Source: a virus. Taken from it: 50,460 nt of DNA. Location of the stretch: IMG/VR virus record IMGVR_UViG_3300037245_000098, positions 1-50,460 of that record; one strand, given 5' to 3'. Below, piece by piece: positions 4,813 through 21,124 of the stretch. Position 1 is the stretch's first letter. Each line of letters starts with the position of its first letter. Below the pieces are notes generated by a model. It had not been told where the DNA came from. It searched no databases and was given only the letters and a program-made list of their open reading frames with translations. The translations under genes were made by a program, and so were the position numbers.

Positions 4813-5064
4813 ATGACACATTTAAAGCAAATCAAGACAGAGCAATCATTCGAAGAGTTAACAAGACTAACCAACAGCGACCTTAAATGGGGAGTATGGT
4901 TTGGATGTTACCAAGTAATCAGTAAAACAACTGAAATGGAGCAAGAGCAGTTACCAAGAGTGCAGGATGGTATCATATACTTTGCAGATGGCAGAGATTC
5001 TATGCATTTTGAAGACAGCGATGAAGCATTATTTGAAGCTACTCGAATCATCAACAACAAGTAA
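4813..5064 (+). CDS. Hypothetical early protein, 83 aa
   Basis: The 83-residue acidic protein starts MTHLKQIKTEQSFEELTRLT and has a Trp-rich centre (DLKWGVWFGCYQV). It then has a beta-like segment (GIIYFADGRDSMHFED) and an acidic helix at the end. No family is recognised. It is the first gene of the early operon. Its first 13 codons and the bases just before them are almost repeated at the next gene (5130-5168), so both genes share one initiation region by duplication. The TAA stop (5062-5064) lies inside stem I of the hammerhead ribozyme that follows. Confidence 0.7.
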   Translation: MTHLKQIKTEQSFEELTRLTNSDLKWGVWFGCYQVISKTTEMEQEQLPRVQDGIIYFADGRDSMHFEDSDEALFEATRIINNK

Positions 5065-5112
5065 TACTGATGAGTCCTGATAGGACGAAACCTGCTACGG
5101 CAGGTCTATTAC
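5061..5112 (+). ncRNA. Hammerhead ribozyme, type I (HHR1)
   Basis: All conserved parts are present in order. Stem I is GTAATA (5061-5066) with TATTAC (5107-5112). The core CTGATGA is at 5067-5073. Stem II is GTCC/GGAC with loop TGATA. The core GAA follows at 5087-5089. Stem III is ACCTGC/GCAGGT capped by TACG, a UNCG-type tetraloop. C17 at 5106 follows GGT, and the expected cut is between 5106 and 5107. The open stem is stem I, so it is type I. The upstream gene's stop codon forms part of stem I, and the next ATG is 32 bases past the cut. Confidence 0.9.
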
Positions 5113-5138
5113 AAATATTAAAAACAAACAAACAAATT

Positions 5139-5777
5139 ATGACACATTTAATGCAAATCGAGACAGAGTTTTTAAACTCTGCAAACAGTGAGATGCTAGG
5201 CACAATTGCACTAGCTAATGAAATCAGAAACGAGACGAAGAAGGGATTCGACAAACAGCTGAAGCTAGCTCAACAGTTTAACCAAGCGATGTTATGGTTC
5301 AGGAAGTCTGAGACGAAAGAGATGCTAGCTGAAGCAGGTATCGAATGGAGTACAGAAAAAGACTTCGTAGAGAGAGTATTCCAATGGAATTACACTAGCA
5401 AGTATCACAACAAACTAATGCGAGTAGCTAAGTTAATGGAAGACGAACCTGCAGTAGTTACCAAATTCAAGAGAGCATGTACATCTGCTGAGAATAATGG
5501 CGAAAGAGCTGTTAGGACAGTAGCAAACCTTATGAAGTTTGCAGGACAGCTAGAACAACAGGACAAACCTGAGGTAGCTACACCAAAGACGTATGTATCA
5601 CTCAGTGTAGCGAAAGACGGCATTAATGGTGATAAAGGATTCTCAGCTAGGGTAACTGCTGAAGGTGTCGTTACCAATGGCGAGCTAGATGACTCATACC
5701 TAAATGGTAAGGTCACAGATTTGCTCAGACAAATGAACGAAGTAGTACAACTTTTACAAAGAGAAGGTGTCCTGTAA
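5139..5777 (+). CDS. Hypothetical early protein, 212 aa
   Basis: An in-frame ATG exists at 5070, but it lies inside the hammerhead core and would be removed by self-cleavage. The ATG at 5139 is preferred because its context matches that of the preceding gene. The 212-residue product starts MTHLMQIETEFLNSANSEML. It is mainly helical and charged up to about residue 150, then has a beta-rich segment (TYVSLSVAKDGINGDKGF) and a C-terminal helix (RQMNEVVQLLQREG). No enzyme motif is seen. Its stop overlaps a GGTGTC-type hairpin. Confidence 0.75.
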   Translation: MTHLMQIETEFLNSANSEMLGTIALANEIRNETKKGFDKQLKLAQQFNQAMLWFRKSETKEMLAEAGIEWSTEKDFVERVFQWNYTSKYHNKLMRVAKLMEDEPAVVTKFKRACTSAENNGERAVRTVANLMKFAGQLEQQDKPEVATPKTYVSLSVAKDGINGDKGFSARVTAEGVVTNGELDDSYLNGKVTDLLRQMNEVVQLLQREGVL

Positions 5778-5784
5778 GACACCT
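5765..5784. repeat. GGTGTC...GACACC hairpin over the stop codon
   Basis: AGGTGTCCTGTAAGACACCT forms a 7-bp stem with loop CTGTAA. The loop contains the TAA stop codon of the 212-aa gene. It could act as a 3' stabilising hairpin or a protein site between this gene and the amidoligase gene. Confidence 0.75.
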
Positions 5785-5821
5785 GTTTAACGTTAACAAT
5801 TTTAAAAAAAACAAGTAACAC

Positions 5822-6832
5822 ATGAATTTATTAAACTATTTACAAGACGAACAAACGCCACAAGTTGGGGTTGAATTTGAAAACCTTAACGACACAAGCG
5901 ATAGAGGTAGAGTAGTATCTTATGGGTTTAAAGCCCCGTCTGCGTTTCGAAACAAAGCGAGACAGGTCGACATCAATGGTCTTAAAAGCGAAGACAGAAA
6001 AAATGTCCATTTCGATGGGTATGAGCATTCTAGCAAATTCACCATAGGATTTGAGGTTGAGAAAAACCGTTTGCACAGGAGTAGTATACGAGAGTATCCA
6101 TTGTTCTGTGGATTTGAGAGTGACTCATCATGCGGATACGAAGCAGTAACGCATGTACTACCATTGATAGCTAAGTCTAAATGGCGAACCAAGGTGTTCA
6201 ACATGTTTGTTGAAGCTAAGCACATCATAGAAGACGAATACAGTCCTAGTGACTATAAATGTGGTGGACACATGCACATTGGTATCAAAGGGATGTCAGG
6301 TGACGAAATAATAAACCTACTACGTCCATATTCAGGTATAATATACTCAATCTTTAGAAAGAGATTAGCCAATCACTACTGTGCGTATAACCCACAAATG
6401 AGAGACGGAGTATACGACAAGTATTCTGTATGTAGAATCAATAACAATACACTAGAATATAGGTTACCTAGCAGAATATCTTCTGTTAAGCAGCTAATGA
6501 GAAGATACGAATTGATGTACGAAATACTAAACTTTGCTGTCAATGATGCAGGTACAAGTATAGCAGTACTTAACCGTAGATTACGTCCAATAGTCATGAG
6601 CATGTACGAACAAGATACAGAGAAGGTAGATGCAATATTTGAGCTGTCAGGTCACTTCACTAAGTTTTTAAAGACAGGTAAACTGAACAAATATACCTGC
6701 GGATGGCTAGAGAAATGGTGGAGTACTTCACCTGCATATGGAGTCAGGTCAAGTGTGTATACAAGAGGCTTTGATTCTTATGATTTGAGTAACCGAGAGT
6801 TTTTTGCTAGTCACTACGCAAACCTAATCTAA
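5822..6832 (+). CDS. Amidoligase-like protein (COOH-NH2 ligase), 336 aa
   Basis: The protein has the signature order of the glutamine-synthetase-fold amidoligase family (Amidoligase_2). There is a beta strand with paired acids, FTIGFEVEKN (E78, E80), then a Gly/acid segment (GFESDSSCGYEAVTHVLPL) and CGGHMHIGIKG (C147-G157, with metal or nucleotide-site type His150 and His152). RINNNTLEYRLPSR near residue 210 gives the late acid and Arg. Family members join a carboxyl group to an amine using ATP. In Iyer and colleagues' survey such genes sit with gamma-glutamylcyclotransferase, amidotransferase and peptidase genes, which also occur here (8796, 9581). The substrate is unknown: a peptide, cell-wall or small-molecule target is possible. 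Confidence 0.65.
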   Translation: MNLLNYLQDEQTPQVGVEFENLNDTSDRGRVVSYGFKAPSAFRNKARQVDINGLKSEDRKNVHFDGYEHSSKFTIGFEVEKNRLHRSSIREYPLFCGFESDSSCGYEAVTHVLPLIAKSKWRTKVFNMFVEAKHIIEDEYSPSDYKCGGHMHIGIKGMSGDEIINLLRPYSGIIYSIFRKRLANHYCAYNPQMRDGVYDKYSVCRINNNTLEYRLPSRISSVKQLMRRYELMYEILNFAVNDAGTSIAVLNRRLRPIVMSMYEQDTEKVDAIFELSGHFTKFLKTGKLNKYTCGWLEKWWSTSPAYGVRSSVYTRGFDSYDLSNREFFASHYANLI

Positions 6833-6841
6833 ACTATACAG

Positions 6842-6863
6842 AGGGTGTCCTATGGGACACCTT
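6842..6863. repeat. GGTGTCC...GGACACC hairpin before HHR2
   Basis: AGGGTGTCCTATGGGACACCTT forms a 7-9 bp stem with loop TATG. It begins 10 bases after the amidoligase stop codon and abuts stem III of the hammerhead ribozyme at 6862. Confidence 0.8.
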
Positions 6864-6916
6864 CCTGTCCACAGGTGAATGCCTGTGCTGATGAGTCCAA
6901 AAGGACGAAACAGGAA
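6862..6916 (+). ncRNA. Hammerhead ribozyme, type III (HHR2)
   Basis: Parts in order: stem III 5' strand TTCCTGT (6862-6868), C17 at 6869, stem I CACAGG/CCTGTG with loop TGAATG (6870-6887), core CTGATGA (6888-6894), stem II GTCC-AAAA-GGAC, core GAA (6907-6909), and stem III 3' strand ACAGGAA (6910-6916). All three stems pair perfectly and the cleavage triplet is GTC. The open stem is stem III. The expected cut is between 6869 and 6870, so most of the ribozyme stays on the downstream RNA in front of the two-TM gene. Confidence 0.9.
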
Positions 6917-6940
6917 CATTAATTTATAACATATAAAACC

Positions 6941-7156
6941 ATGAGAGTAACACTAATTAAAATCCAAAACATGCTAGTAAGCACAATGTCTTTATTCCTT
7001 TTGATATCTGTCTTGAGGGTAGTCAAACACATGATTATGAATACGTCAGGTGGGACGTCTTCTTACGTGTTTCTGTGTGTCCTAACAGCATTCGTTCTAT
7101 TCCTATTACACGGAGTCGTTATGTTTAACGTATGGCTATGGAGAGAGGGTAGATAA
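6941..7156 (+). CDS. Small two-TM membrane protein, 71 aa
   Basis: The 71-residue protein has two hydrophobic segments, about residues 12-26 (LVSTMSLFLLISVLR) and 43-66 (YVFLCVLTAFVLFLLHGVVM). A short basic N-terminus precedes them and the C-terminus ends WREGR. Two helices in a protein this small fit a holin-like or other inner-membrane phage protein, but no family is recognised. It is set apart from its neighbours by a ribozyme on each side (HHR2 and HHR3). The lipoprotein SLT gene lies 650 bases downstream, so a lysis or envelope role is possible. Confidence 0.65.
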   Translation: MRVTLIKIQNMLVSTMSLFLLISVLRVVKHMIMNTSGGTSSYVFLCVLTAFVLFLLHGVVMFNVWLWREGR

Positions 7157-7221
7157 GCATACTGATGAGACCTGAATGGTCGAAAGCTATGGTGTCCAGT
7201 AGGACACCTTAGCTCTATGTT
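7156..7221 (+). ncRNA. Hammerhead ribozyme, type I (HHR3), cut 1 nt before AUG
   Basis: Stem I is AGCATA (7156-7161) with TATGTT (7216-7221), including one G-U pair. The core CTGATGA is at 7162-7168. Stem II is GACC-TGAAT-GGTC, followed by core GAA (7182-7184). Stem III is AGCTA/TAGCT, extended across a T-T mismatch by a GGTGTCC-AGTA-GGACACC hairpin, a member of the dispersed palindrome family. C17 is 7215. The expected cut between 7215 and 7216 leaves RNA starting U-AUG, so the next gene's start codon (7217-7219) is one base from the new 5' end. Before cutting, that AUG is paired in stem I. Confidence 0.9.
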
Positions 7222-7471
7222 AAAAAGAGAAAACGAAATACTAAAAAGACTCGTCAAGGATGGGTTCTTTTGGATGAATTTTTCAAGCACAGATTGCGAT
7301 GGATGCAGTACTGAATCCGCTCGCAAATACACGTCATTGGAAGAGTTTTATGATTATGAAAAAGAATGTGCTGAAACGGCAGATGGTCCATTCAGTTTTG
7401 AATTAGCACCTGAACGTGAAGATGGTACGTATGACATAAATGAGTATTGGAATGGAGGTCAATGGGAATGA
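7217..7471 (+). CDS. Hypothetical acidic protein, 84 aa
   Basis: The protein starts MLKRENEILKRLVKDGFFWM and continues with an acidic region (SLEEFYDYEKECAETADG) rich in Glu, Asp and aromatic residues. Cys residues occur in STDCDGCSTES. No family is recognised. The ATG lies one base beyond the predicted HHR3 cut. The next in-frame Met is residue 20, so a later start would remove the helical N-terminus and is less likely. The stop overlaps the next ATG as ATGA. Confidence 0.7.
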   Translation: MLKRENEILKRLVKDGFFWMNFSSTDCDGCSTESARKYTSLEEFYDYEKECAETADGPFSFELAPEREDGTYDINEYWNGGQWE

Positions 7472-7659
7472 GATTAAATTACACAAAAATTGAAGACGTA
7501 GAGGTGGATGGGATAGACACGAATGACTATCCTGACTTCTGCGATGCGTACATAGCAGCAGCTACGTACAAAGGTAGAGAGATGACAGATGAGGAGTTAG
7601 ATACGTTGAACGAGGATGACTCTTACGTTTACGATAAAGTAACAGATAATATATATTAA
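7468..7659 (+). CDS. Conserved small phage protein, 63 aa
   Basis: The frame opens earlier (7447), but the ATG at 7468 overlaps the previous stop as ATGA and is the natural start. It gives 63 residues starting MRLNYTKIEDVEVDGIDTND. The pattern GIDT.DYPDFCDAYI..A.YKGRE.TDEELD.LN.D...VY..V recurs in small proteins of many phages; I recognise it but know of no assigned function. The protein is strongly acidic. Confidence 0.8.
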   Translation: MRLNYTKIEDVEVDGIDTNDYPDFCDAYIAAATYKGREMTDEELDTLNEDDSYVYDKVTDNIY

Positions 7660-7662
7660 GAT

Positions 7663-7830
7663 ATGAGAGAGCAACAACAAAACTACAGGGTAAGCTATGC
7701 AGGCAAGTACATCAAGCAGGTGTACGCACATAGCAAATGGCATGCTATAGACAAGGTCTATAGTGAGAACATAGATAAGTACGAGAGGTCAAAACTAAAA
7801 GCAGCAATAAGCGTATGGTGGTCAAGATAA
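7663..7830 (+). CDS. Small hypothetical protein, 55 aa
   Basis: ATG at 7663, TAA at 7828-7830. The 55 residues start MREQQQNYRVSYAGKYIKQV and continue YAHSKWHAIDKVYSENIDKY. The amphipathic Tyr/Lys-rich pattern 'YRVSYAGKYIKQVYAHSKWHAIDKVY' resembles small accessory phage proteins. It begins three bases after the previous stop and overlaps the lipoprotein gene by 16 bases, which fits the compact operon. The function is unknown. Confidence 0.6.
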   Translation: MREQQQNYRVSYAGKYIKQVYAHSKWHAIDKVYSENIDKYERSKLKAAISVWWSR

Positions 7831-8300
7831 GTACAGTCATCTTTATTAGCATGCTTATTGGTTCTTGTTCCAATAATGCAGACGTACATACGGGTGAAGT
7901 AAAAGAACAAACGAAGTCCATTGAGGTGTCCTGCAAGACACCTACTTGGAACGATTTGATACGAGCTGTAATTCACGTTGAGAGCAGAGGCAATGACTCT
8001 GCGGTAGGTGATAATGGCAAGGCTGTAGGATGCCTACAGATACACCCTATAATGGTACGAGAGGTCAATCGAATACTTGCTAAGCATGACATACCTACTA
8101 CCTACACGTTGAATGACAGATACAGTCGTGCAAAGTCCATTGAGATGTTTAACATCGTGTCAGAGGAGTACTACTGCTGCGAAGACTACACCTTCATGGA
8201 GTATGCAGAGATAGTAGCTAGAAGATGGAACGGTGGTCCAAACGGAGATAAAAAAGTATCAACAATTAAATATTTTAACAAAGTAAAAAAACAATTATGA
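7815..8300 (+). CDS. SLT-like lysozyme/transglycosylase lipoprotein, 161 aa
   Basis: Residues 1-18 form a lipoprotein signal: VVK, then the hydrophobic ISTVIFISMLIG and a lipobox ending in Cys18 (LIGSC). After a linker, the segment IRAVIHVESRGNDSAVGDNG places a catalytic-type Glu (about E56) in the ESRGN context. GKAVGCLQIHPIM and the later ARRWNGGPNG and YFNKVKK follow, which is the order seen in SLT/goose-type lysozyme domains. It should cleave peptidoglycan from the periplasmic face of the outer or inner membrane. This suggests lysis or local wall remodelling. The linker contains a palindrome copy at 7924-7943. It is in the early operon, not with late genes. Confidence 0.75.
   Translation: MVVKISTVIFISMLIGSCSNNADVHTGEVKEQTKSIEVSCKTPTWNDLIRAVIHVESRGNDSAVGDNGKAVGCLQIHPIMVREVNRILAKHDIPTTYTLNDRYSRAKSIEMFNIVSEEYYCCEDYTFMEYAEIVARRWNGGPNGDKKVSTIKYFNKVKKQL
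7924..7943. repeat. GGTGTC...GACACC palindrome inside the SLT gene
   Basis: AGGTGTCCTGCAAGACACCT encodes part of the linker (VSCKTP) between lipobox and catalytic domain. The same 16-base core recurs in noncoding copies (for example 9302-9319), so the palindrome has been tolerated or inserted in a coding linker. Confidence 0.7.
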
Positions 8301-8530
8301 ATAGAGAAGAACTTAAAGAAAAAATCCTAGACATACTAGAGAATCACTACCACGGTAGGAACTTCATAGAAGACAGAGCATCAGAAGACATATTAGATTT
8401 GTTCCAAGATATATACACCCTATCGGGTGAGAAAAATCAAGAAAACACATCTAAGCCTTGCGAGTGCAACCACTTTTCGGATTGTCTTGACATTGGTGGA
8501 TGTATAAAGAAGCTAACATTAAACAAGTAA
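8297..8530 (+). CDS. Hypothetical Cys-containing protein, 77 aa
   Basis: The ATG overlaps the previous stop as ATGA. The 77 residues begin MNREELKEKILDILENHYHG, mainly acidic helices. They end with a Cys cluster, CECNHFSDCLDIGGCIKK (four Cys plus His), that could bind zinc. No family is recognised. It lies in the same compact operon as the SLT lipoprotein. Confidence 0.65.
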   Translation: MNREELKEKILDILENHYHGRNFIEDRASEDILDLFQDIYTLSGEKNQENTSKPCECNHFSDCLDIGGCIKKLTLNK

Positions 8531-8561
8531 AACAACATTAAAGTAGTAAAAAACCAACACG

Positions 8562-8639
8562 ATGAGATTAATAAAAAAGTATATACGAAACAGAATTTTC
8601 AGAAAGTACATTAAACTAGGATTAATAGAAAAATTATGA
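8562..8639 (+). CDS. Candidate 25-aa cationic peptide
   Basis: A short frame with ATG 8562 and TGA 8637-8639 gives MRLIKKYIRNRIFRKYIKLG followed by LIEKL. It is strongly basic with alternating Ile, Leu and Phe, and would form an amphipathic helix. It lies between the Cys-protein and the promoter at 8699. The length makes chance possible. Translation is not shown. Confidence 0.3.
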   Translation: MRLIKKYIRNRIFRKYIKLGLIEKL

Positions 8640-8653
8640 CAACTTCTTTTCTA

Positions 8654-8675
8654 AAGGTGTCGAATTCGACACCTT
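8654..8675. repeat. Perfect 22-bp palindrome of the GGTGTC family
   Basis: AAGGTGTCGAATTCGACACCTT is perfectly self-complementary. As RNA it gives a 9-bp stem with an AATT loop. It closes the upstream operon just before a new promoter (8699), so it may mark an RNA 3' end, though no T-run follows. Confidence 0.8.
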
Positions 8676-8698
8676 ATTAAAAGAGCTGAAAAAATAAA

Positions 8699-8730
8699 TT
8701 TGGAAATGTCTAAAGTTTGTTTTATCTTTG
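8699..8730 (+). promoter_or_regulatory. Strong Bacteroidota-type promoter
   Basis: TTTG at 8699-8702, a 20-base spacer, and TATCTTTG at 8723-8730 match the TTTG-N20-TAnnTTTG consensus without a mismatch. The start site would be near 8737. The first transcribed structure would be the bulged hairpin at 8752-8779, ahead of the 157-aa gene. Confidence 0.75.
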
Positions 8731-8751
8731 TCTAAAATTATAGTAAAATCA

Positions 8752-8779
8752 GGGGTCGGCGTCCAACAGGATACTCCCC
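8752..8779 (+). promoter_or_regulatory. Bulged 5' hairpin, copy A
   Basis: GGGG (8752-8755) pairs with CCCC (8776-8779). An unpaired TC follows the 5' strand. The inner stem GCGTCC/GGATAC (one C-A mismatch, one G-T pair) is capped by AACA. It ends 16 bases before the ATG of the 157-aa gene. Copies B and C (9274-9325, 9516-9563) have the same plan with different paired bases. Confidence 0.55.
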
Positions 8780-8795
8780 ACAAAATTAAATTAAA

Positions 8796-9269
8796 ATGAA
8801 AAAAGCAGAAATTATTAGTATTGGCGAACTAAGAAAGGTTAGCCTAAACAAATTCAAGGAGTCAAATCCAAGAAGAGAACTATTCCCTAAAGGAACAAAG
8901 AAACAACTCATTGTAGGTGACTGCGTAGTAAGAGCTATCGTTCACGTTACAGGTAAAGGCTACAGAGAGACGTTTAGAGATTTAATGGAGTATGCAATGC
9001 ATCATCCAACGTGTCAGCCATTTAACTTTGATGATGTGCTTAGTGATTATCTCGAAGAGGTGTTAGGAGCAGTTAAACACAAACCAAAAAGAAAAGCAAA
9101 TGGCAAGACTTATGAGGTAAGACGTTTCCCTGCATCCAAAGACAAAAGCTACATTATAAAAACGACAACTCACATTACTAGTATAGTAGGTGGTGTGCAT
9201 CTAGATAGTTGGAATTGCGGAGCTTGGAGAGCAAACACTTATTGGACGATTGACAAAGACTCACTCTAA
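8796..9269 (+). CDS. Papain-like cysteine peptidase candidate, 157 aa
   Basis: The protein has VGDCVVRAIVHVTGKGYRET with Cys43 at the start of a helix. It later has THITSIVGGVHLDSWNCG with His126 on a strand and Asp137 shortly after. The order DC.vRAi..atG..Y......HI....G...D.W matches the papain/C39-like fold seen in small phage proteins: Cys, then His, then Asp. The activity is inferred, and the fold could also serve as an amidase or transglutaminase. It follows its own strong promoter and a structured leader, and lies between the amidoligase (5822) and the amidotransferase-cyclotransferase (9581) genes. Confidence 0.55.
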   Translation: MKKAEIISIGELRKVSLNKFKESNPRRELFPKGTKKQLIVGDCVVRAIVHVTGKGYRETFRDLMEYAMHHPTCQPFNFDDVLSDYLEEVLGAVKHKPKRKANGKTYEVRRFPASKDKSYIIKTTTHITSIVGGVHLDSWNCGAWRANTYWTIDKDSL

Positions 9270-9273
9270 AGAG

Positions 9274-9325
9274 AATTAAATTAAACATTAACCGAGGTCA
9301 GGGTGTCCTGCAAGACACCCTCCTC
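9274..9325 (+). promoter_or_regulatory. Bulged 5' hairpin, copy B, with 26-bp direct repeat
   Basis: The 26 bases at 9274-9299 are identical to 9516-9541 (copy C). They run into a hairpin: GAGG (9294-9297) with CCTC (9322-9325), bulge TCA against T, inner stem GGGTGTC/GACACCC, loop CTGCAA. The inner stem is also a member of the dispersed palindrome family. The hairpin ends 19 bases before the ATG at 9345. Confidence 0.65.
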
Positions 9326-9344
9326 ATTAAAAAAAAAAAATCAA

Positions 9345-9515
9345 ATGGAAAGCAGAACACAAGAAAGAGTATCTCACGTAATGACACTACTTACTGTATG
9401 GGATTGCCTAGATGGGCTGACAAACAATGAAAGAGTAAAACTCAGAAAAGATTTGGAATGGATAGCAGAAGGGTCAGTACAGGATTTTAAAACAGAGATT
9501 CTAAGAATCAAGTAA
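9345..9515 (+). CDS. Small hypothetical protein, 56 aa
   Basis: A GTG at 9303 would extend the frame through the hairpin, so the ATG at 9345 in A-rich context is preferred. The 56 residues start MESRTQERVSHVMTLLTVWD and form two likely helices (VMTLLTVWDCLDGL and RVKLRKDLEWIAEG). No family is recognised. It lies between two identical leader elements, each placed before a start codon, so it appears to be independently controlled in the same way as its neighbours. Confidence 0.65.
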   Translation: MESRTQERVSHVMTLLTVWDCLDGLTNNERVKLRKDLEWIAEGSVQDFKTEILRIK

Positions 9516-9563
9516 AATTAAATTAAACATTAACCGAGGTCGGTACCTGAAGGGGTACCCCTC
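9516..9563 (+). promoter_or_regulatory. Bulged 5' hairpin, copy C, with 26-bp direct repeat
   Basis: After the repeated 26 bases, GAGG (9536-9539) pairs with CCTC (9560-9563), with TC bulged. The inner stem GGTACC/GGTACC is capped by TGAAGG. The inner stem sequence differs entirely from copies A and B while pairing is kept. It ends 17 bases before the ATG at 9581. Confidence 0.65.
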
Positions 9564-9580
9564 ACAAACATTAAACATTT

Positions 9581-10633
9581 ATGTGCGTAATTATTATTAA
9601 ACAGAAAGGCAGAGATGTGCCAAGAGAGGTTCTCAAAACATCAGCAAGAATCAATCCGCATGGATTAGGAATCGTATGGCTAGACACATTCAAAGTAAGC
9701 TACCACACGTCAAAGGAGTATTCGCTACTAGACACAGCGAGACCATACATCGCTCACTTTAGGTATGCAACAGTCGGTAAGGTCTGTAAAGAAAACACTC
9801 ATCCATTCGTATGTGGCAACAACAAAGACGAGCTATTCATGATGAACGGGACGGTGGATGGATACGGTAACGATATGATGACAGACACAGAAGACCTAGC
9901 TATTCAACTAGGTAATACACCAAGACACACGTGGAAAAAGTCACTGTCAAAATTTGAGGCAAGGTTCCTGTCAGTTAACACGAGGAACAGAACATTCCAA
10001 ATCTTTAACAAGCACCTGTATACCTATCGAGATGGAGTATGGTACTCCAAGACAAACGTCCTGCAGGACAATGTGGTTGCGGTTTATGGTACACTCAAGA
10101 AAGGGTTCCACAATAACCATTCATACCTACGTAACTCAAAGTTTTTAGGTAAGGGATACACTAAAGACAAGTATCCTTTGGTTGTGTCGGGGTTACCATA
10201 TCTGATAGACAAGAAAGACAAAGGGACGAACGTCAGGGTTGACGTGTTCAAGGTAGACGACAAAACCTTCAAAGACCTAGACATGCTAGAGGGTCATCCA
10301 AGGTGGTACAGGAGAAGACAGATACCTATCAACGTCAACAACAAAGTAATCAATGCGTGGATTTATTTCAATCCTACCGAGGAGCATATATGGGACGGAC
10401 ACAATCATGTGAAGTCCTACGAACGTACTTACAGCTTAACTCCTAAGGATACGTATGAGTTAGTGCAAGAGCCAACGTGTACACAGGTCAGTGTATACGA
10501 TGAGTTTCCTAAAGACGAATCACCCATATGTTTAGATTGTTTTCACGACCTAAAGTTTGATGGGTTTAGTAATTATCATTGTGACGGATGTGACGGATGG
10601 TTTACTGAAGAGGATGTGTTACCCTATTCATAA
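9581..10633 (+). CDS. Class II amidotransferase-GGCT fusion, 350 aa
   Basis: Residues 1 to about 165 look like a class II glutamine amidotransferase (Ntn) domain. It has MCVIIIK with Cys2 as nucleophile after Met removal, AHFRYATVG (H59, R61), NTHPF, and the MMNGTVDGYGN oxyanion-type motif. Residues about 166-285 match gamma-glutamylcyclotransferase (AIG2-like): VAVYGTLKKG with Y169-L172, then VDVFKVDDKTFKDLDMLEG with the catalytic-type Glu. The C-terminal tail holds two CxxC pairs (CLDCF, CDGCDGW), a zinc-ribbon. Such a protein could supply ammonia or cleave gamma-glutamyl amide products. Partner genes are the amidoligase at 5822 and the peptidase candidate at 8796. The combination in one chain is unusual. 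Confidence 0.75.
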   Translation: MCVIIIKQKGRDVPREVLKTSARINPHGLGIVWLDTFKVSYHTSKEYSLLDTARPYIAHFRYATVGKVCKENTHPFVCGNNKDELFMMNGTVDGYGNDMMTDTEDLAIQLGNTPRHTWKKSLSKFEARFLSVNTRNRTFQIFNKHLYTYRDGVWYSKTNVLQDNVVAVYGTLKKGFHNNHSYLRNSKFLGKGYTKDKYPLVVSGLPYLIDKKDKGTNVRVDVFKVDDKTFKDLDMLEGHPRWYRRRQIPINVNNKVINAWIYFNPTEEHIWDGHNHVKSYERTYSLTPKDTYELVQEPTCTQVSVYDEFPKDESPICLDCFHDLKFDGFSNYHCDGCDGWFTEEDVLPYS

Positions 10634-10640
10634 ACCAAAC

Positions 10641-10666
10641 GAAGGGTGTTTTACAGGACACCCTTC
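10641..10666. repeat. GGGTGT...ACACCC hairpin after the GATase gene
   Basis: GAAGGGTGT pairs perfectly with ACACCCTTC around the loop TTTACAGG. It begins eight bases past the stop codon and is followed at once by the hammerhead ribozyme at 10668, so the cut would leave this hairpin at the 3' end of the upstream mRNA. Confidence 0.8.
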
Positions 10667-10667
10667 A

Positions 10668-10716
10668 CTGTCTACGGATGTGTATCCGTACTGATGAAGT
10701 CGAAAGACAGAAACAG
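10668..10716 (+). ncRNA. Hammerhead ribozyme, type III, variant (HHR4)
   Basis: Stem III is CTGT (10668-10671) with ACAG (10713-10716). C17 is 10672. Stem I is TACGGAT/ATCCGTA with loop GTGT (10673-10690). The core CTGATGA is at 10691-10697. Stem II is GTC-GAAA-GAC preceded by an A-A pair (10698 and 10709) in the place where a G-C pair is usual. The core GAA is at 10710-10712. The cleavage triplet is GTC. The A-A pair and the short stem III make it less certain than the other three and possibly slower. Confidence 0.75.
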
Positions 10717-10717
10717 A

Positions 10718-10766: not shown

Positions 10767-11162
10767 ATGATTAAATTAGAGACAATTAAGAGAGTAACCG
10801 ATGATATCTTAAGTGATGTCGAATGGGTTAACGACAGCCATTCAGAAGCAGAGTATGAAGGGATTAAGGGAGGTCTTAACAGACTCATCAGACACATTGA
10901 AGAAACCAATCAGTACAACGACCTGAAAGAGGTGGAGAGTGAAGACCTAAGACAAGAGCTACAACTACGAGGGTACTTTACAGATACCATGTGGCACGTT
11001 GAGGATGTGATGTGCAACTATAGATGTACATCAGAACAGGCAATGACACTGCTAGAAAAGGTGTTAAAGTTAAACCACATCACAGAGGGCATATACAGCA
11101 CCATAGATGATGAGGCAGAGTATATGGAGTATAGAACAACAGACGATAACCCATTAAACTAA
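10767..11162 (+). CDS. Hypothetical acidic protein, 131 aa
   Basis: The protein begins MIKLETIKRVTDDILSDVEW and is acidic and helical throughout. Its middle reads LQLRGYFTDTMWHVEDVMCN followed by YRCTSEQAMTLLEKVL. This region resembles a conserved small phage domain that I recall but cannot name. It is the first gene behind a perfect promoter and starts the replication and recombination segment. No catalytic motif is visible. Confidence 0.7.
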   Translation: MIKLETIKRVTDDILSDVEWVNDSHSEAEYEGIKGGLNRLIRHIEETNQYNDLKEVESEDLRQELQLRGYFTDTMWHVEDVMCNYRCTSEQAMTLLEKVLKLNHITEGIYSTIDDEAEYMEYRTTDDNPLN

Positions 11163-14534: not shown

Positions 14535-16949
14535 ATGACATCAAACATCACTATATTTAAGAATATAAAAGAAACAGACGCACCATTCCATAGACCTATT
14601 GGTCATCTCATTGAGCGTATAAGGAACGGAGCATCAAAAGATTTAGTAAAGCGTATACGAAAAGAACAACGTAAGGCTGAGCGAAACGAATTAAAGAAAC
14701 AGCTACCCGCAATTTGTTTTAGTGGTAGGTTTACAAAAAGGAATGATAACTCAATACAGGAACACTCAGGGTTTATATGCCTAGACTTTGATGGGTACGA
14801 AAAAAGTAGAGAGATGTTACAGGATAAAGAGAACATAACTAAGTCTCCTTATACCTACTCTGTTTTTGTTTCTCCATCAGGTCAAGGTTTAAAGGTAATC
14901 GTTAAGATACCACAAGACATAGATAACCACGTAAACTATTTCAATAGCCTACAAAAACATTTTAACAACCCTAAGTTTGACGTTACGTGCAAGAACTTAT
15001 CTAGGGTTTGTTATGAATCTTACGACCCACTAATTTTTGTAAACGAGAACTCATCTATATGGGATAAGATAGAAGAGAGAGAGTATCAAGAGAAGAATCA
15101 GTATAGAGATGCACCTACCATTCCTATCACAGATGAGAACAAGATAGTAGACATACTTGTAAAGTGGTGGGTAAAAAAATATCCAATGGTTGAGGGACAA
15201 AGAAACCACAACTGCTATGTATTAGCGTCAGCGTTCAATGACTTTGGAATCAATAAGTCTCTAGCAGGATATGTAATGAGCAACTACAGAAGCGAAGACT
15301 TTAACGAGAACGAGATACACAGGACCATAGAGTCGGCATACTCTAACACAGCTAACTTTGGTAGTAAGTACTATGAAGACGAAGAGCGTCTACATAACCT
15401 TAAAATAAAGTTGAAGCGAGGGGCATCTAAAAAAGAACTACGTACACAACTAGAAGACTCAAACCTAGATAGCGAAGTTATTGAGGCTGTCATTACAAGG
15501 ATAGATGAGGAGGCACAAGAGACTCAGTTTTGGATGAAGTCGGACAAGGGTGTAGTAAGGATAATACATGTACTATTTAAACAATTCCTAGAAGACAATG
15601 GGTTCTACAAGTACTGCCCTGAAGGTAGTAAGAACTACGTTTTTGTTAAGGTAACCGATAACCTAATAGACCACACAGACGAGAAGGAGATAAAAGATTT
15701 TGTTCTTAATAACCTTATAGAGATAGATGACTTAAGTATATATAATCACTTTGCAGATAAGGTGAGATACTTTAAAGAAGACTTCCTTACTTTGCTTAGT
15801 ACAATTGATGTTTACTTTATAGAGGATAATAAAGACACATCCTATCTATACTACAGGAATTGTGCAGTAAAGATTACAAAGGATGATTTGCAGATGATTG
15901 ACTACCTTGACCTAGGAGGTTATGTATGGAAAGACCACGTGATAGACAGAAACTTTAGTGAATGTGATTTAGACACAGACTATAGTAAGTTTATATATAA
16001 CATATGTAACGGAGAGCAAGACAGGATATCGGCAATGAACTCTACTATAGGGTTCCTGATGCACGCACACAAGAACCTATCGTTTTGTCCTGCAGTTATA
16101 CTAAACGATGAAGTGATATCAGATAACCCTGAAGGCGGTACAGGTAAAGGTATGTTCATGAATGCACTAAGCCAAATGAAAAAGGTAGTTACCATTGATG
16201 GTAAGTCATTTACATTTGAACGTTCCTTTGCATACCAACTTGTATCTGCAGACACACAGATTTTAGTATTCGATGACGTACGTAAGCACTTCGAGTTTGA
16301 AAGATTATTCTCTGTAGTAACAGAAGGATTAACACTAGAGAAGAAGAACAAGGATGCAATCAAGATACCATTTGAGAAGTCACCCAAGATTGCTATCACT
16401 ACTAACTACGCAATCAAAGGAAGCGGCAACTCATTTGCTAGAAGGAAGTGGGAGCTTGAGTTACACCAACACTACAGTAAGAACTACACTCCACTAGATG
16501 AGTTTGGTAAACTATTTTTCGGTGATTGGAATGATGGAGAGTGGTGTGCATTTGACAACTATATGATAGGATGTCTTCAGGGATACCTTAACACAGGACT
16601 GATTGAGAGTAAGTTTGTTAACCTTAAGATACGTCAGCTATCGGCAGAGACATCTCACGATTTCATTGAGTGGTGTGGATTAATTAATGGCAGTCAGGAC
16701 AACCCAATCTTAGGTGTAGACATAAAGATAAGCCTACATACAGCATACCTAGATTTCATTGAGCAGTACCCTGACTATGCACCTAAAGCTAAGCTGACAA
16801 TCAGTAGGATTAAGTTTAATAAATGGATGTCATCCTATGCTTCATTTAAGTCAGGCACTAACCCACAAGAGGGTAGAGATATGGCAGGTAGATGGCTAAG
16901 GATAAAGAGAGATGATGAGTTAGTAACACAGAAAACTTTAAATGTATAG
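14535..16949 (+). CDS. Primase-helicase (VirE-N/primase-like plus SF3 ATPase), 804 aa
   Basis: The N-terminal part has a BT4734/VirE-N-like region: AICFSGRFTK, then GFICLDFDGYEKS with D84 and D86, then YSVFVSPSGQGLKVIVKIP. This is the pattern of primase-polymerase-type catalytic domains. A helical linker (about 190-330) leads to an SF3/D5-like helicase: Walker A NPEGGTGKGMF (E533-G539), Walker B ILVFDD (D580, D581) and later IAITTNYAIKG as a sensor motif. It should prime and unwind phage DNA. An indirect GTCAAC-ATTGG-GTTGAC repeat lies just upstream (14503-14519). Confidence 0.8.
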   Translation: MTSNITIFKNIKETDAPFHRPIGHLIERIRNGASKDLVKRIRKEQRKAERNELKKQLPAICFSGRFTKRNDNSIQEHSGFICLDFDGYEKSREMLQDKENITKSPYTYSVFVSPSGQGLKVIVKIPQDIDNHVNYFNSLQKHFNNPKFDVTCKNLSRVCYESYDPLIFVNENSSIWDKIEEREYQEKNQYRDAPTIPITDENKIVDILVKWWVKKYPMVEGQRNHNCYVLASAFNDFGINKSLAGYVMSNYRSEDFNENEIHRTIESAYSNTANFGSKYYEDEERLHNLKIKLKRGASKKELRTQLEDSNLDSEVIEAVITRIDEEAQETQFWMKSDKGVVRIIHVLFKQFLEDNGFYKYCPEGSKNYVFVKVTDNLIDHTDEKEIKDFVLNNLIEIDDLSIYNHFADKVRYFKEDFLTLLSTIDVYFIEDNKDTSYLYYRNCAVKITKDDLQMIDYLDLGGYVWKDHVIDRNFSECDLDTDYSKFIYNICNGEQDRISAMNSTIGFLMHAHKNLSFCPAVILNDEVISDNPEGGTGKGMFMNALSQMKKVVTIDGKSFTFERSFAYQLVSADTQILVFDDVRKHFEFERLFSVVTEGLTLEKKNKDAIKIPFEKSPKIAITTNYAIKGSGNSFARRKWELELHQHYSKNYTPLDEFGKLFFGDWNDGEWCAFDNYMIGCLQGYLNTGLIESKFVNLKIRQLSAETSHDFIEWCGLINGSQDNPILGVDIKISLHTAYLDFIEQYPDYAPKAKLTISRIKFNKWMSSYASFKSGTNPQEGRDMAGRWLRIKRDDELVTQKTLNV

Positions 16950-16951
16950 TT

Positions 16952-17221
16952 ATGTCTACATACGATGATAAAATTAAAACATTAGAAGTACTTAAGGAGC
17001 ACGGCTCATTAATAGTATCAGGATACGGAGCTGCACTTATGGGATACACTGAAAATTTTAACAGAAATATAGTTGCAGTATATGACCTAGACAGGTGTAT
17101 AGATATAACCGCAGAGGATATGCCATACGCAGACGCAATTGATTACTTTTATTTTAATATACACGGAGCATATATGGGGGAAAACAACCCTATATTTATA
17201 AGGCTAGATAAAAACATATGA
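16952..17221 (+). CDS. Hypothetical protein, 89 aa
   Basis: The 89-residue protein starts MSTYDDKIKTLEVLKEHGSL and has alternating hydrophobic strands (NIVAVYDLDRCIDI) and an acidic centre (AEDMPYADAIDYFYFN). No family is recognised. It lies two bases after the primase stop and overlaps the helicase ATG (ATGA), so it is coupled to both. An accessory role in replication is possible from position only. Confidence 0.65.
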   Translation: MSTYDDKIKTLEVLKEHGSLIVSGYGAALMGYTENFNRNIVAVYDLDRCIDITAEDMPYADAIDYFYFNIHGAYMGENNPIFIRLDKNI

Positions 17222-18627
17222 AAGGATTATATCAGGTAACAGCGACCAAAGGTTCGAGGACTATATCTTCTGAGGTGTATGGAGATTCAAATAATAAAGA
17301 TTCATTGATAGCAAGGTTGATGAACAGACATAAGATTCTTCATTCACAGAGACCTTTGTTTAAAATATCAGAAATAAAGTTAAATAAAGATATGAGTGAT
17401 GACAGGTTTCAGTTCCGTGACTATCAGTCGCAGATAATACAAGAGGCGTATGAGATTTGTGAGAAGTACAGGTTTGTTTATCTAGCGATGGAGGTAAGGA
17501 CAGGAAAGACACTAACAAGCCTTGGTCTAGCAGATAAGCTAGGGTGTAGAGAGGTATTGTTTGTAACAAAAAAGAAGGCGATAGGAAGTATTGAGTCTGA
17601 CTACAACCTACTTAACCCTTCCTTCAAATTACATACGGTCAACTACGAATCACTACATAAGATTGAAGATGTTAGTTACGACATGGTTATACTTGATGAG
17701 GCTCATACGCTTGGTGCATTTCCTAAGCCAAGCAAAAGAGCTAAGCAAGTAAAAGAGTTTATACATAAGTATAGGTGTATAATTTGTTTGATGTCAGGAA
17801 CCCCGACACCTGAGAGTTACAGTCAGATGTATCATCAGGTGTATGGGATTCCATCAAACCCATTTAAAGAATATACAAGTTTCTACAAGTTTGCTAAGGA
17901 CTACATAGACGTAAAGCAACGTAAGATTAATTCTCTTTATGTGAATGATTATTCAAGAGGTCAACAATCTATTTTAGATAAGGTCAGACCTATGACAATA
18001 ACATACACTCAGAGAGAGGCAGGCTTCGTTAATAAAATAAATGAACAAGTACTTGTTGTGAAGATGAACGATATCACTTATCGTTTGGCAGATAAAATTA
18101 AAAAGGATAGGGTAGTTGAGGGTAATAGTGAAGTCATATTGGGTGATACGCCTGCGAAATGTATGTCAAAGCTACATCAGATATATTCAGGGACAGTGAA
18201 GTTTGAAAGCGGAGAGTCGATGATATTTGATTACTCAAAGGCTGAGTTCATAAAGGAAAGGTTTAAGGGTAAAAAGATAGGCGTGTTCTATAAGTTCAAG
18301 CAAGAGTATAACGCATTAAAGGGTGTCTTCAAGGACACCTTGTGCGATACACTAGAAGAGTTTGTTGGGACAGATAAGAACATTGCACTACAGATTGTGT
18401 CAGGACGTGAGGGAATAAGCCTGAAGGAAGCTGACGTGTTGGTGTACTATAACATAGACTTTTCTGCTACGAGTTATTGGCAGAGTAGAGATAGGATGAC
18501 AACAAAAGATAGGAAACATAGCGATGTGTATTGGATATTCTCTGATGGAGGTATTGAAAAAGATATATATAAAGCTGTGATAAAGAAGAAGGATTACACA
18601 GTACAACATTTTAAAAAAATATTATGA
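17218..18627 (+). CDS. SF2/SNF2-like DNA helicase, 469 aa
   Basis: Helicase motifs appear in order. FRDYQSQIIQEAYE is the Q-motif-type opening. MEVRTGKTLTSLG is motif I (GKT about residues 96-98). VILDEAHTLG is motif II (D160-H163). LMSGTPTPES is motif III. The second RecA domain ends with LQIVSGREGISLKEADVLVY and SYWQSRDRM, motifs V and VI. It is a compact phage helicase of the SNF2-like type. Its gene contains a GGTGTC-TTCAAG-GACACC palindrome at 18322-18339. It overlaps the neighbours on both sides by four bases. Confidence 0.8.
   Translation: MKGLYQVTATKGSRTISSEVYGDSNNKDSLIARLMNRHKILHSQRPLFKISEIKLNKDMSDDRFQFRDYQSQIIQEAYEICEKYRFVYLAMEVRTGKTLTSLGLADKLGCREVLFVTKKKAIGSIESDYNLLNPSFKLHTVNYESLHKIEDVSYDMVILDEAHTLGAFPKPSKRAKQVKEFIHKYRCIICLMSGTPTPESYSQMYHQVYGIPSNPFKEYTSFYKFAKDYIDVKQRKINSLYVNDYSRGQQSILDKVRPMTITYTQREAGFVNKINEQVLVVKMNDITYRLADKIKKDRVVEGNSEVILGDTPAKCMSKLHQIYSGTVKFESGESMIFDYSKAEFIKERFKGKKIGVFYKFKQEYNALKGVFKDTLCDTLEEFVGTDKNIALQIVSGREGISLKEADVLVYYNIDFSATSYWQSRDRMTTKDRKHSDVYWIFSDGGIEKDIYKAVIKKKDYTVQHFKKIL
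18322..18339. repeat. GGTGTC...GACACC palindrome inside the helicase gene
   Basis: GGTGTCTTCAAGGACACC encodes VFKDT in the helicase C-terminal half. Similar in-gene copies encode VFRDT at 11607, VLQDN at 10058 and VLEDT in groEL. Confidence 0.6.
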
Positions 18628-20321: not shown

Positions 20322-20700
20322 AGTATGCGTAAGTTGTAATAAATCTCTGCCTGCTACAGATTATCATTCCGCAGGACAAAAAAATAAAAAGGGTGAGACA
20401 TATATGCGTGCAAGCTGCAAGGTCTGTAATCTAAAAGTAAAAAGAATAAGAAAGAAAAGTATAAGGGGGTGGCTAAGGGATTATAAAATGAGCTTAAGTT
20501 GCGAGGGGTGCGGATACTCTAAAGAAACTAGTAAAACATTCTCAACAAAGGCATTGCAGTTTCATCACTCAGAAGGAGATAAGAGTTTTGAGATAGGGAA
20601 CTCAATAGGTAACGGCTATAGTGTAGAAAATATACAAAAAGAAATAGATAAGTGTATGGTGTTATGTTCGAGGTGCCACGCAGAGTTACACGATAAATGA
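20311..20700 (+). CDS. HNH endonuclease with zinc fingers, 129 aa
   Basis: A TTG at 20305 would add two residues; the ATG at 20311 is preferred. CVSCNKSLP and CKVCNLKVKR form an N-terminal zinc-finger pair, and CEGCGYS with CSRCHAELH form the second metal site. The HNH core is ALQFHHSEGDKSFEIGNSIG, with the His pair, and the CHAELH end. Phage HNH proteins act in packaging or as free-standing homing nucleases; either is possible here. It overlaps the next gene as ATGA, so it belongs to the operon. Confidence 0.85.
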   Translation: MSYKVCVSCNKSLPATDYHSAGQKNKKGETYMRASCKVCNLKVKRIRKKSIRGWLRDYKMSLSCEGCGYSKETSKTFSTKALQFHHSEGDKSFEIGNSIGNGYSVENIQKEIDKCMVLCSRCHAELHDK

Positions 20701-21107
20701 GGTTTGAATCAAACAAAGATATAGACAGAGAGGAGCTAGCAATAAATAAATTCGTTAGTAAATTTCGTGGTACGTTTAAAAAACTAGACCCAAACGATGT
20801 AGACTATAGGGTTTATGATGAGTCTAATAAACTAATAGCATACGTAGAGGTGAAGGGTAGGTATAGGACTATTGCTAATGCATACCCACTACCTGTCGCT
20901 GCTCGAAAGGTTGTTAAGCTTTGTGACAAAAGGCTGAATCCCGTTATCGTATGGGCGTGTGATGACGGAATCATATATGGTAAGCCAACACACCTACACG
21001 GAGATGTGAGATGGGGAGGCAGAAATCCACGTGAAGGTGCAGTGAATGACCAAGAGCTTATGGTCTACTACGATAAACAAAAAGAGTTCAGGTACTTTAA
21101 GTACTAA
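20697..21107 (+). CDS. PD-(D/E)XK-like nuclease, 136 aa
   Basis: VDYRVYDESNKLIAYVEVKG (about residues 37-56) has the strand-Asp-strand-E-x-K order of PD-(D/E)XK enzymes. A basic helix (PVAARKVVKLCDKR) and the strand NPVIVWACDDGI complete the fold. The C-terminus is aromatic. It is the last plus-strand gene and its stop is one base before a palindrome marking the meeting point with the late genes. The nuclease call is moderate because the family is diverse. Confidence 0.6.
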   Translation: MRFESNKDIDREELAINKFVSKFRGTFKKLDPNDVDYRVYDESNKLIAYVEVKGRYRTIANAYPLPVAARKVVKLCDKRLNPVIVWACDDGIIYGKPTHLHGDVRWGGRNPREGAVNDQELMVYYDKQKEFRYFKY

Positions 21108-21108
21108 A

Positions 21109-21124
21109 GTGTCCTACAGGACAC
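21109..21124. repeat. Palindrome at the convergent gene junction
   Basis: GTGTCCTACAGGACAC lies between the stops of the last plus-strand gene (21107) and the last minus-strand gene (21151). Being symmetric, it could end or protect both transcripts. No clear T-run is present on either strand. Confidence 0.75.

Follow-up and report, generated by a model that had tools for sequence, protein, structure and literature searches.

The window analysed here is the whole of the IMG/VR virus record IMGVR_UViG_3300037245_000098 (50,460 bases). Small early genes and a replication block occupy its plus strand between about 4.8 and 21.1 kb, and the late genes lie on the minus strand. Four hammerhead ribozyme motifs, designated HH1 to HH4, are found among the early genes, two of type I and two of type III, all co-directional and on the transcribed strand (Table 1). 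A reading made from the letters alone (the sequence-only reading) had already placed four hammerheads here, and a motif scan together with covariance models confirmed their locations, types, strand and cut positions, with HH4 now delimited as 10667-10717. Its statement that the four are not recent copies of one another was also supported, and its description of them as intergenic holds with a nuance: HH1 begins within the final bases of the gene before it (stop codon 5062-5064), and HH3 starts at the final nucleotide of a stop codon. The terminase and primase of the window are closest to those of MW202828.1 (74% and 70%), followed by phages of Flavobacterium (elemo), Cellulophaga, Maribacter and Tenacibaculum.

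Table 1. Hammerhead motifs, hairpins and genes of the window (aa, amino acids; nt, nucleotides).
Feature	Position	Strand	Remarks
HH1, type I	5061..5112	+	Predicted cut 5106/5107; strict scan
HH2, type III	6862..6916	+	Predicted cut 6869/6870; strict scan
HH3, type I	7156..7221	+	Predicted cut 7215/7216, one nucleotide 5′ of AUG at 7217; strict scan
HH4, type III variant	10667..10717	+	A.A at 10.1-11.1; predicted cut 10672/10673
Hairpin GAGGGUGUCC..GGACACCUUC 5′ of HH2	6841..6864	+	About 5 nt before the cut; would form the 3′ end of the upstream mRNA
Hairpin GAAGGGUGUU..GGACACCCUUC immediately 5′ of HH4	10641..10666	+	
Stand-alone GUGUC..GACAC hairpin	5767..5782	+	End of the gene at 5139
Stand-alone GUGUC..GACAC hairpin	8657..8672	+	Intergenic
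Stand-alone GUGUC..GACAC hairpin	9303..9318	+	Intergenic
GUGUC..GACAC hairpin	21109..21124	.	Convergent end of early and late blocks
83-aa gene 5′ of HH1	4813..5064	+	Stop 5062-5064 inside HH1 stem I; no Pfam match
212-aa gene 3′ of HH1	5139..5777	+	N-terminus like that of the gene at 4813 (MTHL-QI-TE); no Pfam match
336-aa gene 5′ of HH2	5822..6832	+	Family not recognised; Pfam search without match
71-aa gene between HH2 and HH3	6941..7156	+	Predicted cuts would free it as a 346-nt RNA
84-aa gene	7217..7471	+	AUG sits in HH3 stem I
350-aa gene, followed by HH4	9581..10633	+	Gamma-glutamyl cyclotransferase domain; weak class-II glutamine amidotransferase match
131-aa gene 3′ of HH4	10767..11162	+	In the Pfam-scanned set
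Primase/helicase-like protein	14535-16949	+	Replication block
Helicase	17218-18627	+	Replication block
Portal	45607-48042	-	Late block
Terminase	48039-50273	-	Late block

The motif scan covered both strands and required the core CUGANGA, stem II, GAA, the A15.1-U16.1 pair, H17 and stems I and III. In its strict form it returned exactly three complete hammerheads (HH1-HH3) and no others in 50,460 bp, against a chance expectation of 0.025 per window in third-order Markov controls. The stems of HH1 are GUAAUA/UAUUAC (I), GUCCU/AGGAC (II) and ACCUGC/GCAGGU (III), and those of HH2 are UUCCUGU/ACAGGAA (III), CACAGG(UGAAUG)CCUGUG (I) and GUCC/GGAC (II); stem III of HH3 bears a hairpin, GGUGUCC/GGACACC, that is shared with other sites in the genome. 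Lengths of stems I/II/III are 6/5/6 bp in HH1, 7/4/7 in HH2 and 6/4/5 in HH3. The core CUGANGA...GAA with A15.1-U16.1 and H17 is present in all four motifs. HH4 has the full core, stem I (UACGGA/UCCGUA) and stem III (CUGU/ACAG, only 4 bp), and was rejected by the strict scan because of its stem II: beside the core, where HH1-HH3 have a G-C pair at 10.1-11.1, it consists of A.A followed by GUC/GAC. Judged by its sequence, HH4 is a homologous variant rather than a standard member of the hammerhead class. The claim that all four can cut was not supported in that form, as the conserved A.A replaces the core-adjacent G-C and makes the activity of HH4 unpredictable. The minimum free energy (MFE) fold is the hammerhead for both HH1 and HH3.

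Searched against Rfam at gathering scores, the window gave no match. HH1 reached 29.1 bits with RF00163 (gathering 34), part of HH2 reached 28.3 bits (gathering 48.5), and the RAGATH-1 hammerhead (RF03152) scored 25.1 bits against a gathering score of 56.3 (E 1.8); most weak Rfam matches at permissive E-values were dismissed as chance (DLEU2_4, L20_leader). The Rfam check proposed in the sequence-only reading therefore fails by its own thresholds, yet the canonical copies of relatives fail it as well: only 1 of about 26 in seven relatives passes gathering, which indicates that the Rfam cut-offs miss this phage subfamily, and annotation pipelines resting on them overlook nearly all hammerheads of these phages. 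Covariance models built from the relatives, R1 for type III and R2 for type I, recovered all four motifs. HH4 (R1, 57.4 bits, E=2.9e-13) and HH3 (R2, 49.9 bits, E=1.8e-11) lie outside the training sets, whereas HH2 (R1, 74.3 bits) and HH1 (R2, 53.5 bits) are training members whose scores follow by construction. A weak and incomplete match to R2 at 10599-10636, at the end of the cyclotransferase gene (19.1 bits, E 0.0066), is probably due to chance.

The same elements recur in related phages, which were retrieved with three window proteins. The strict scan of 2.79 Mb of relatives yielded 145 complete hammerheads, compared with 2 in matched random sequence, and 142 of the 145 lie on the plus strand of their loci, orientation having been set by the gene match. 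Model searches of 50 whole relative records detected type III hammerheads in 45 of them and those of type I in 16. With the 350-aa cyclotransferase gene as a reference point, 40 of 41 near-full-length relatives in which this gene was mapped bear between one and six hammerheads, and every motif in the 41 relatives (106/106) lies on the strand of that gene, from -5.0 to +1.6 kb of its start, in genomes of about 60 kb. The motifs mark a phage lineage. The suggestion that RNA self-processing is a general expression strategy fits this distribution, with its one 6.5-kb zone and uniform strand, and may hold beyond the window. Scanning IMG/VR with the bare core pattern CTGANGAGNNNNAAANNNCGAAAC, in which no pairing was imposed, led to complete hammerheads in about 75 of 79 new loci, many of them in phages where none of the ten window proteins tested had a detectable relative. 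Loci from other phage groups (L180, L211 and L272) each have five to seven hammerheads within about 14 kb, L180 having at least six.

The stems are maintained by covariation. Among 44 type III and 22 type I motifs, aligned in sets that include motifs picked by pairing, compensatory changes were seen at every variable pair, and the only pairs that never vary are those adjacent to the core and one further pair in stem III. Loop I of type III is mostly UGAGUG, UGUGUG or UGUGUA and the stem II loop mostly CAAAAG or CGAAAG; both loop elements are conserved, and a tertiary contact between them may be inferred. Guanine at position 17 is the sole base incompatible with hammerhead cleavage. When position 17 was left unconstrained in the search, G17 occurred in none of 331 unique motifs, and this absence is a signature of selection for catalysis. 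It is hard to reconcile with neutral or selfish hammerheads that recombination has spread along with intergenic hairpins and that bring the phage no benefit. Copies do share stems within some relatives (for example the three type I copies of L077), hairpins repeat within a genome, and losses occur; but the covarying stems, the lack of G17, the conserved loops, the divergence of stems among syntenic copies that follow the cyclotransferase gene, and the strict strand and zone require selection for catalysis, leaving a neutral origin highly improbable.

A constant geometry surrounds the predicted cuts. In both types the cut falls about 40-50 nt past the upstream stop codon and immediately behind a hairpin, which in type III is an added one and in type I is the ribozyme's own stem III. 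For type III the order is stop codon, a median of 7 nt, hairpin, and a cut mostly 4-5 nt past the 3′ end of the hairpin. Of 94 type III motifs, 79 have a hairpin of at least 8 bp within the 60 nt that precede the cut, compared with 192 of 1045 hammerhead-free stop codons (18%) and with 3% of random positions, for which a tighter distance limit was used. Type I motifs begin at the stop codon (median -1 nt; 29 of 41 start -6 to +1 nt from it), so that the stop often lies within stem I, and their cut-to-AUG distance is mostly 18-24 nt. The window has 15 near-identical GTGTC(3-8)GACAC hairpins (0.15 expected), located at 3165, 4492, 5767, 6845, 7192, 7926, 8657, 9303, 11607, 13930, 18323, 21109, 30899, 42924 and 50049; they are mostly intergenic, with three (3165, 7926 and 50049) apparently in coding sequence. 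Relatives show an equivalent arrangement with another, genome-specific hairpin sequence, as though a co-evolving factor recognised the hairpins or each genome had homogenised its own. A role for the HH2 hairpin as a conserved anti-ribozyme switch was considered and rejected: the MFE fold competes with stem III, yet by eye the complementarity was absent at the syntenic sites inspected.

Motif identity, covariation, placement, strand, confinement to a single zone and hairpin geometry, all directly observed, support a model in which the four elements are hammerheads of a phage subfamily that cut nascent early mRNA in cis, giving upstream mRNAs that end in a hairpin and downstream mRNAs that begin with a 5′-OH. 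We assign this model a probability of roughly 0.68; cleavage in vivo and any effect on mRNA stability or expression are its inferred part. Cutting would occur co-transcriptionally, just after chosen genes of the polycistronic early mRNA. The new upstream 3′ end, carrying a 2′,3′-cyclic phosphate, would lie next to a stable hairpin, either a separate one 4-5 nt before the cut (type III) or stem III itself, one nucleotide before it (type I). The downstream mRNA would start with its 5′-OH on a closed stem-I hairpin (type III) or on a short leader of about 20 nt (type I). The predicted pieces are the RNA up to 5106, 5107-6869, 6870-7215, 7216-10672 and onward, and a single promoter would thereby give rise to mRNA units that are each stable separately. 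HH4 would act as a conserved A.A variant, perhaps slower or needing other conditions.

The same geometry bears on whether the ribozymes instead serve mainly the downstream gene, with the cut setting or exposing a 5′ end (5′-OH and short leader, or in HH3 an AUG one nucleotide away) that controls translation or decay. The 18-24 nt between cut and AUG in most type I motifs and the position of the HH3 AUG at 7217 inside stem I fit such a role, and in the haloviruses HF1/HF2 a hammerhead lies 13 nt before a helicase gene with an mRNA 5′ end mapped near the cut (PMC3088659). However, the features that both types keep constant are a hairpin immediately 5′ of the cut and a set distance to the upstream stop; the leader left by type III contains a structured remnant of 46 nt, and the cut-adjacent AUG in L004 and L009 may not be the true start. 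We consider a primary role for the downstream gene unlikely. The predicted piece 6870-7215 raises a further reading, that paired hammerheads free RNAs to be circularised by an RtcB-type ligase, here a 346-nt RNA with the 71-aa gene. Ends with a 5′-OH and a 2′,3′-cyclic phosphate suit RtcB, and a flanking type III/type I pair is also found in L004 and L009. Set against this, the window proteins scanned included no recognisable RNA ligase, 12 of the 40 carrier genomes have a single hammerhead only, and Perreault et al. sought circular or spliced products and detected none (PMC3088659). Circular mRNAs thus seem very unlikely, and cis cleavage that forms the 3′ ends of upstream mRNAs is preferred.

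The mispair of HH4 recurs at the equivalent site of other genomes. After the cyclotransferase gene, positions 10.1-11.1 are A.A in L009-L013 with different stems, U.U in L020, L030, L050 and L062, G.U in L029, and G-C in L022, L034, L035, L037 and L038. A decayed copy was rejected as an explanation of HH4, since at least five relatives keep A.A at the syntenic position although their stems have changed; HH4 is better described as a variant. With 10.1 and 11.1 unconstrained, motifs were G-C in 282 cases, U.U in 54, A.A in 13 and of other kinds in six. Unbiased IMG/VR scans, permitting A/T or G/C at both positions, gave U.U 105 times (103 complete), A.A 16 (13 complete), G-C 144 (140 complete), U-A 3 and A-U 1 (none complete), and C-G 0. 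Each class has its own preference at position 17: C17 predominates among G-C motifs (108 of 140), A17 among U.U motifs (90 of 103) and U17 among A.A motifs (10 of 13). The excess of A17 in U.U over G-C motifs is significant for both type III (Fisher 9e-19) and type I (2e-8), counted over unique sequences and uncorrected for relatedness. The later scans contributed 107 loci, and as only 24 of these showed a relative of any window protein tested, the classes extend beyond the lineage. U.U was reported in 2011 as a natural variant and the best tolerated mispair, and the text passages of that paper do not mention A.A at 10.1-11.1 (PMC3088659).

The coupling of the 10.1-11.1 pair to position 17 opens a new way to probe the active site of this classic ribozyme. 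A broader proposal is advanced tentatively, at somewhat less than even odds: that this Flavobacteriia-type phage lineage uses a dedicated ribozyme-plus-hairpin module as an mRNA 3′-end former, and that its hammerheads and those of other phages fall into G-C, U.U and A.A classes (with no A-U, U-A or C-G), each with a preferred cleavage base (C17, A17 and U17/C17), suggesting tuned cleavage and previously undescribed active-site constraints. Conserved U.U and A.A variants coupled to position 17 would also suit conditional cleavage, in which a ribosome terminating on the stop inside type I stem I, together with variants tuned to be slower, would make cutting report upstream translation or growth state. 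The start of 29 of 41 type I motifs within -6 to +1 nt of a stop fits this as well, but compact intergenic space alone could put the stop there, and conditional control appears doubtful.

Carriers include cultured phages. Phages A, C, D and F of the elemo group carry two copies, one of type III that heads the early operon and one of type I farther along, and the 221-bp region around the type I copy is found in all 68 Flavobacterium elemo phage records (host BAL314) at 95% identity or more. Stem II of this copy is GACU/AGUC in elemoA_7-9A and GGUU/AACC in elemoC_14-1A, a difference of two compensatory changes. ElemoD and elemoF (loci among L304, L305, L308 and L309) are natural loss-of-structure mutants that share a host with elemoA and elemoC. 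Cellulophaga phi18:3 and phi19:3 each have one type I copy, while phi38:1, phi13:2, Calle_1, Gundel_1, Panino and MW202828.1 gave no model match at E 0.05. The near-universal occurrence of hammerheads in the relatives suggests that these phages cut their own mRNAs and supplies laboratory phages for testing; with a whole lineage keeping hammerheads in fixed places and with constant anatomy, function becomes both inferable by comparison and testable in culture.

Several observations weigh against the cis-cutting model. HH4 lacks the canonical 10.1-11.1 pair and its MFE fold differs from the hammerhead, and the MFE of an 82-nt stretch around HH2 prefers a fold that pairs the stem III strand elsewhere. 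Hairpins without a ribozyme stand at many gene ends of the window genome, which argues that the hairpin has a cleavage-independent role. The elements are dispensable, given that L015, a member of the 41-relative set, and the named relative MW202828.1 have no match, and in elemoD and elemoF stem II of the type I copy is broken, a mismatched hybrid GACU/AACC.

Some further features of the window and of other carriers were noted. The genes flanking HH1 (4813-5064 and 5139-5777) encode proteins with near-equal starts (MTHLKQIKTEQ and MTHLMQIETEF), a partial duplication. An amidoligase identity, considered for the 336-aa protein, was dropped as Pfam yields nothing. No homologue of the 84-aa protein (7217..7471) was found in a homologue search, and the view of its AUG, one nucleotide past the HH3 cut, as a conserved leaderless design was set aside because L004 and L009 have better downstream starts. 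Flavobacterial -7 promoter-like sites were of no use (10 found in the window, 6.1 expected). Cellulophaga phi18:3 (L312) has a gene for the anti-restriction protein ArdA some 1 kb downstream of its hammerhead (record positions 20432-20998 and 21904-21958), a proximity reminiscent of the link between ardA and hammerheads described in Agrobacterium and Legionella (PMC3088659). Type III hammerheads with the same loops are frequent in genome bins of candidate phyla (Patescibacteria, also known as CPR; L459-L538 and further loci), sometimes with 2-4 per 8 kb. Complete motifs were present in 104 of 120 such loci; a phage integrase gene was nearby in two of six examined, and others had host-type genes such as DNA ligase. 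A search of the open-licence PMC literature found no paper on hammerheads in Flavobacterium phages or candidate-phyla bacteria.

The window copies share their core and topology with Rfam Hammerhead_1 (RF00163) and Hammerhead_3 (RF00008), below whose gathering scores they fall. Type III of this lineage differs in its short stem I, UGNGUR-like loop, 4-bp stem II and CAAAAG-like closing loop, and lacks the longer stems of the Rfam model. In phage T7, RNase III makes intergenic cuts in early mRNA that leave hairpin-ended units. The polycistronic early mRNA of the window would likewise be cut between genes, with cis RNA catalysis proposed in place of a host protein enzyme. In Mimivirus, palindromic hairpins mark the gene ends where mRNA 3′ ends form, through protein cleavage and polyadenylation (PMC4402537), whereas the window phage has a ribozyme at some gene ends.

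Several co-directional hammerheads between the genes of one operon, as found here, constitute the clustered phage arrangement. Perreault et al. (2011) described hammerhead clusters flanking single genes in prophages and proposed that they process long phage transcripts into mRNAs; native hammerheads of these clusters cut in vitro, and one did so in E. coli (PMC3088659). The mRNA-processing idea of the sequence-only reading is thus already known, as are the clusters themselves. Like the Agrobacterium ardA triple and the clusters of Clostridium scindens and Azorhizobium, the window has several close hammerheads flanking single phage genes on the transcribed strand (PMC3088659). Unlike those clusters, which are scattered and associated with inconstant genes, the lineage has one 6.5-kb zone in 40 of 41 relatives and a fixed hairpin-ribozyme composite after stop codons; the criteria given in PMC3088659 reject a 10.1-11.1 mispair and would exclude HH4. 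The HHphage hammerhead of HF1/HF2 likewise precedes a gene within a lytic virus's early region, and differs in its single copy, core insertion at C3 and archaeal host (PMC3088659). The role of bacterial and phage hammerheads has been a question since 2010-2011, and a 2017 review still terms it unresolved (PMC6155905). Relative to the open-licence PMC literature, the new points are that a whole lineage keeps its hammerheads in one zone, that stop codon, hairpin and ribozyme form a composite, that there is an A.A class, that 10.1-11.1 is coupled to position 17, and that the carriers include cultured phages, natural mutants among them.

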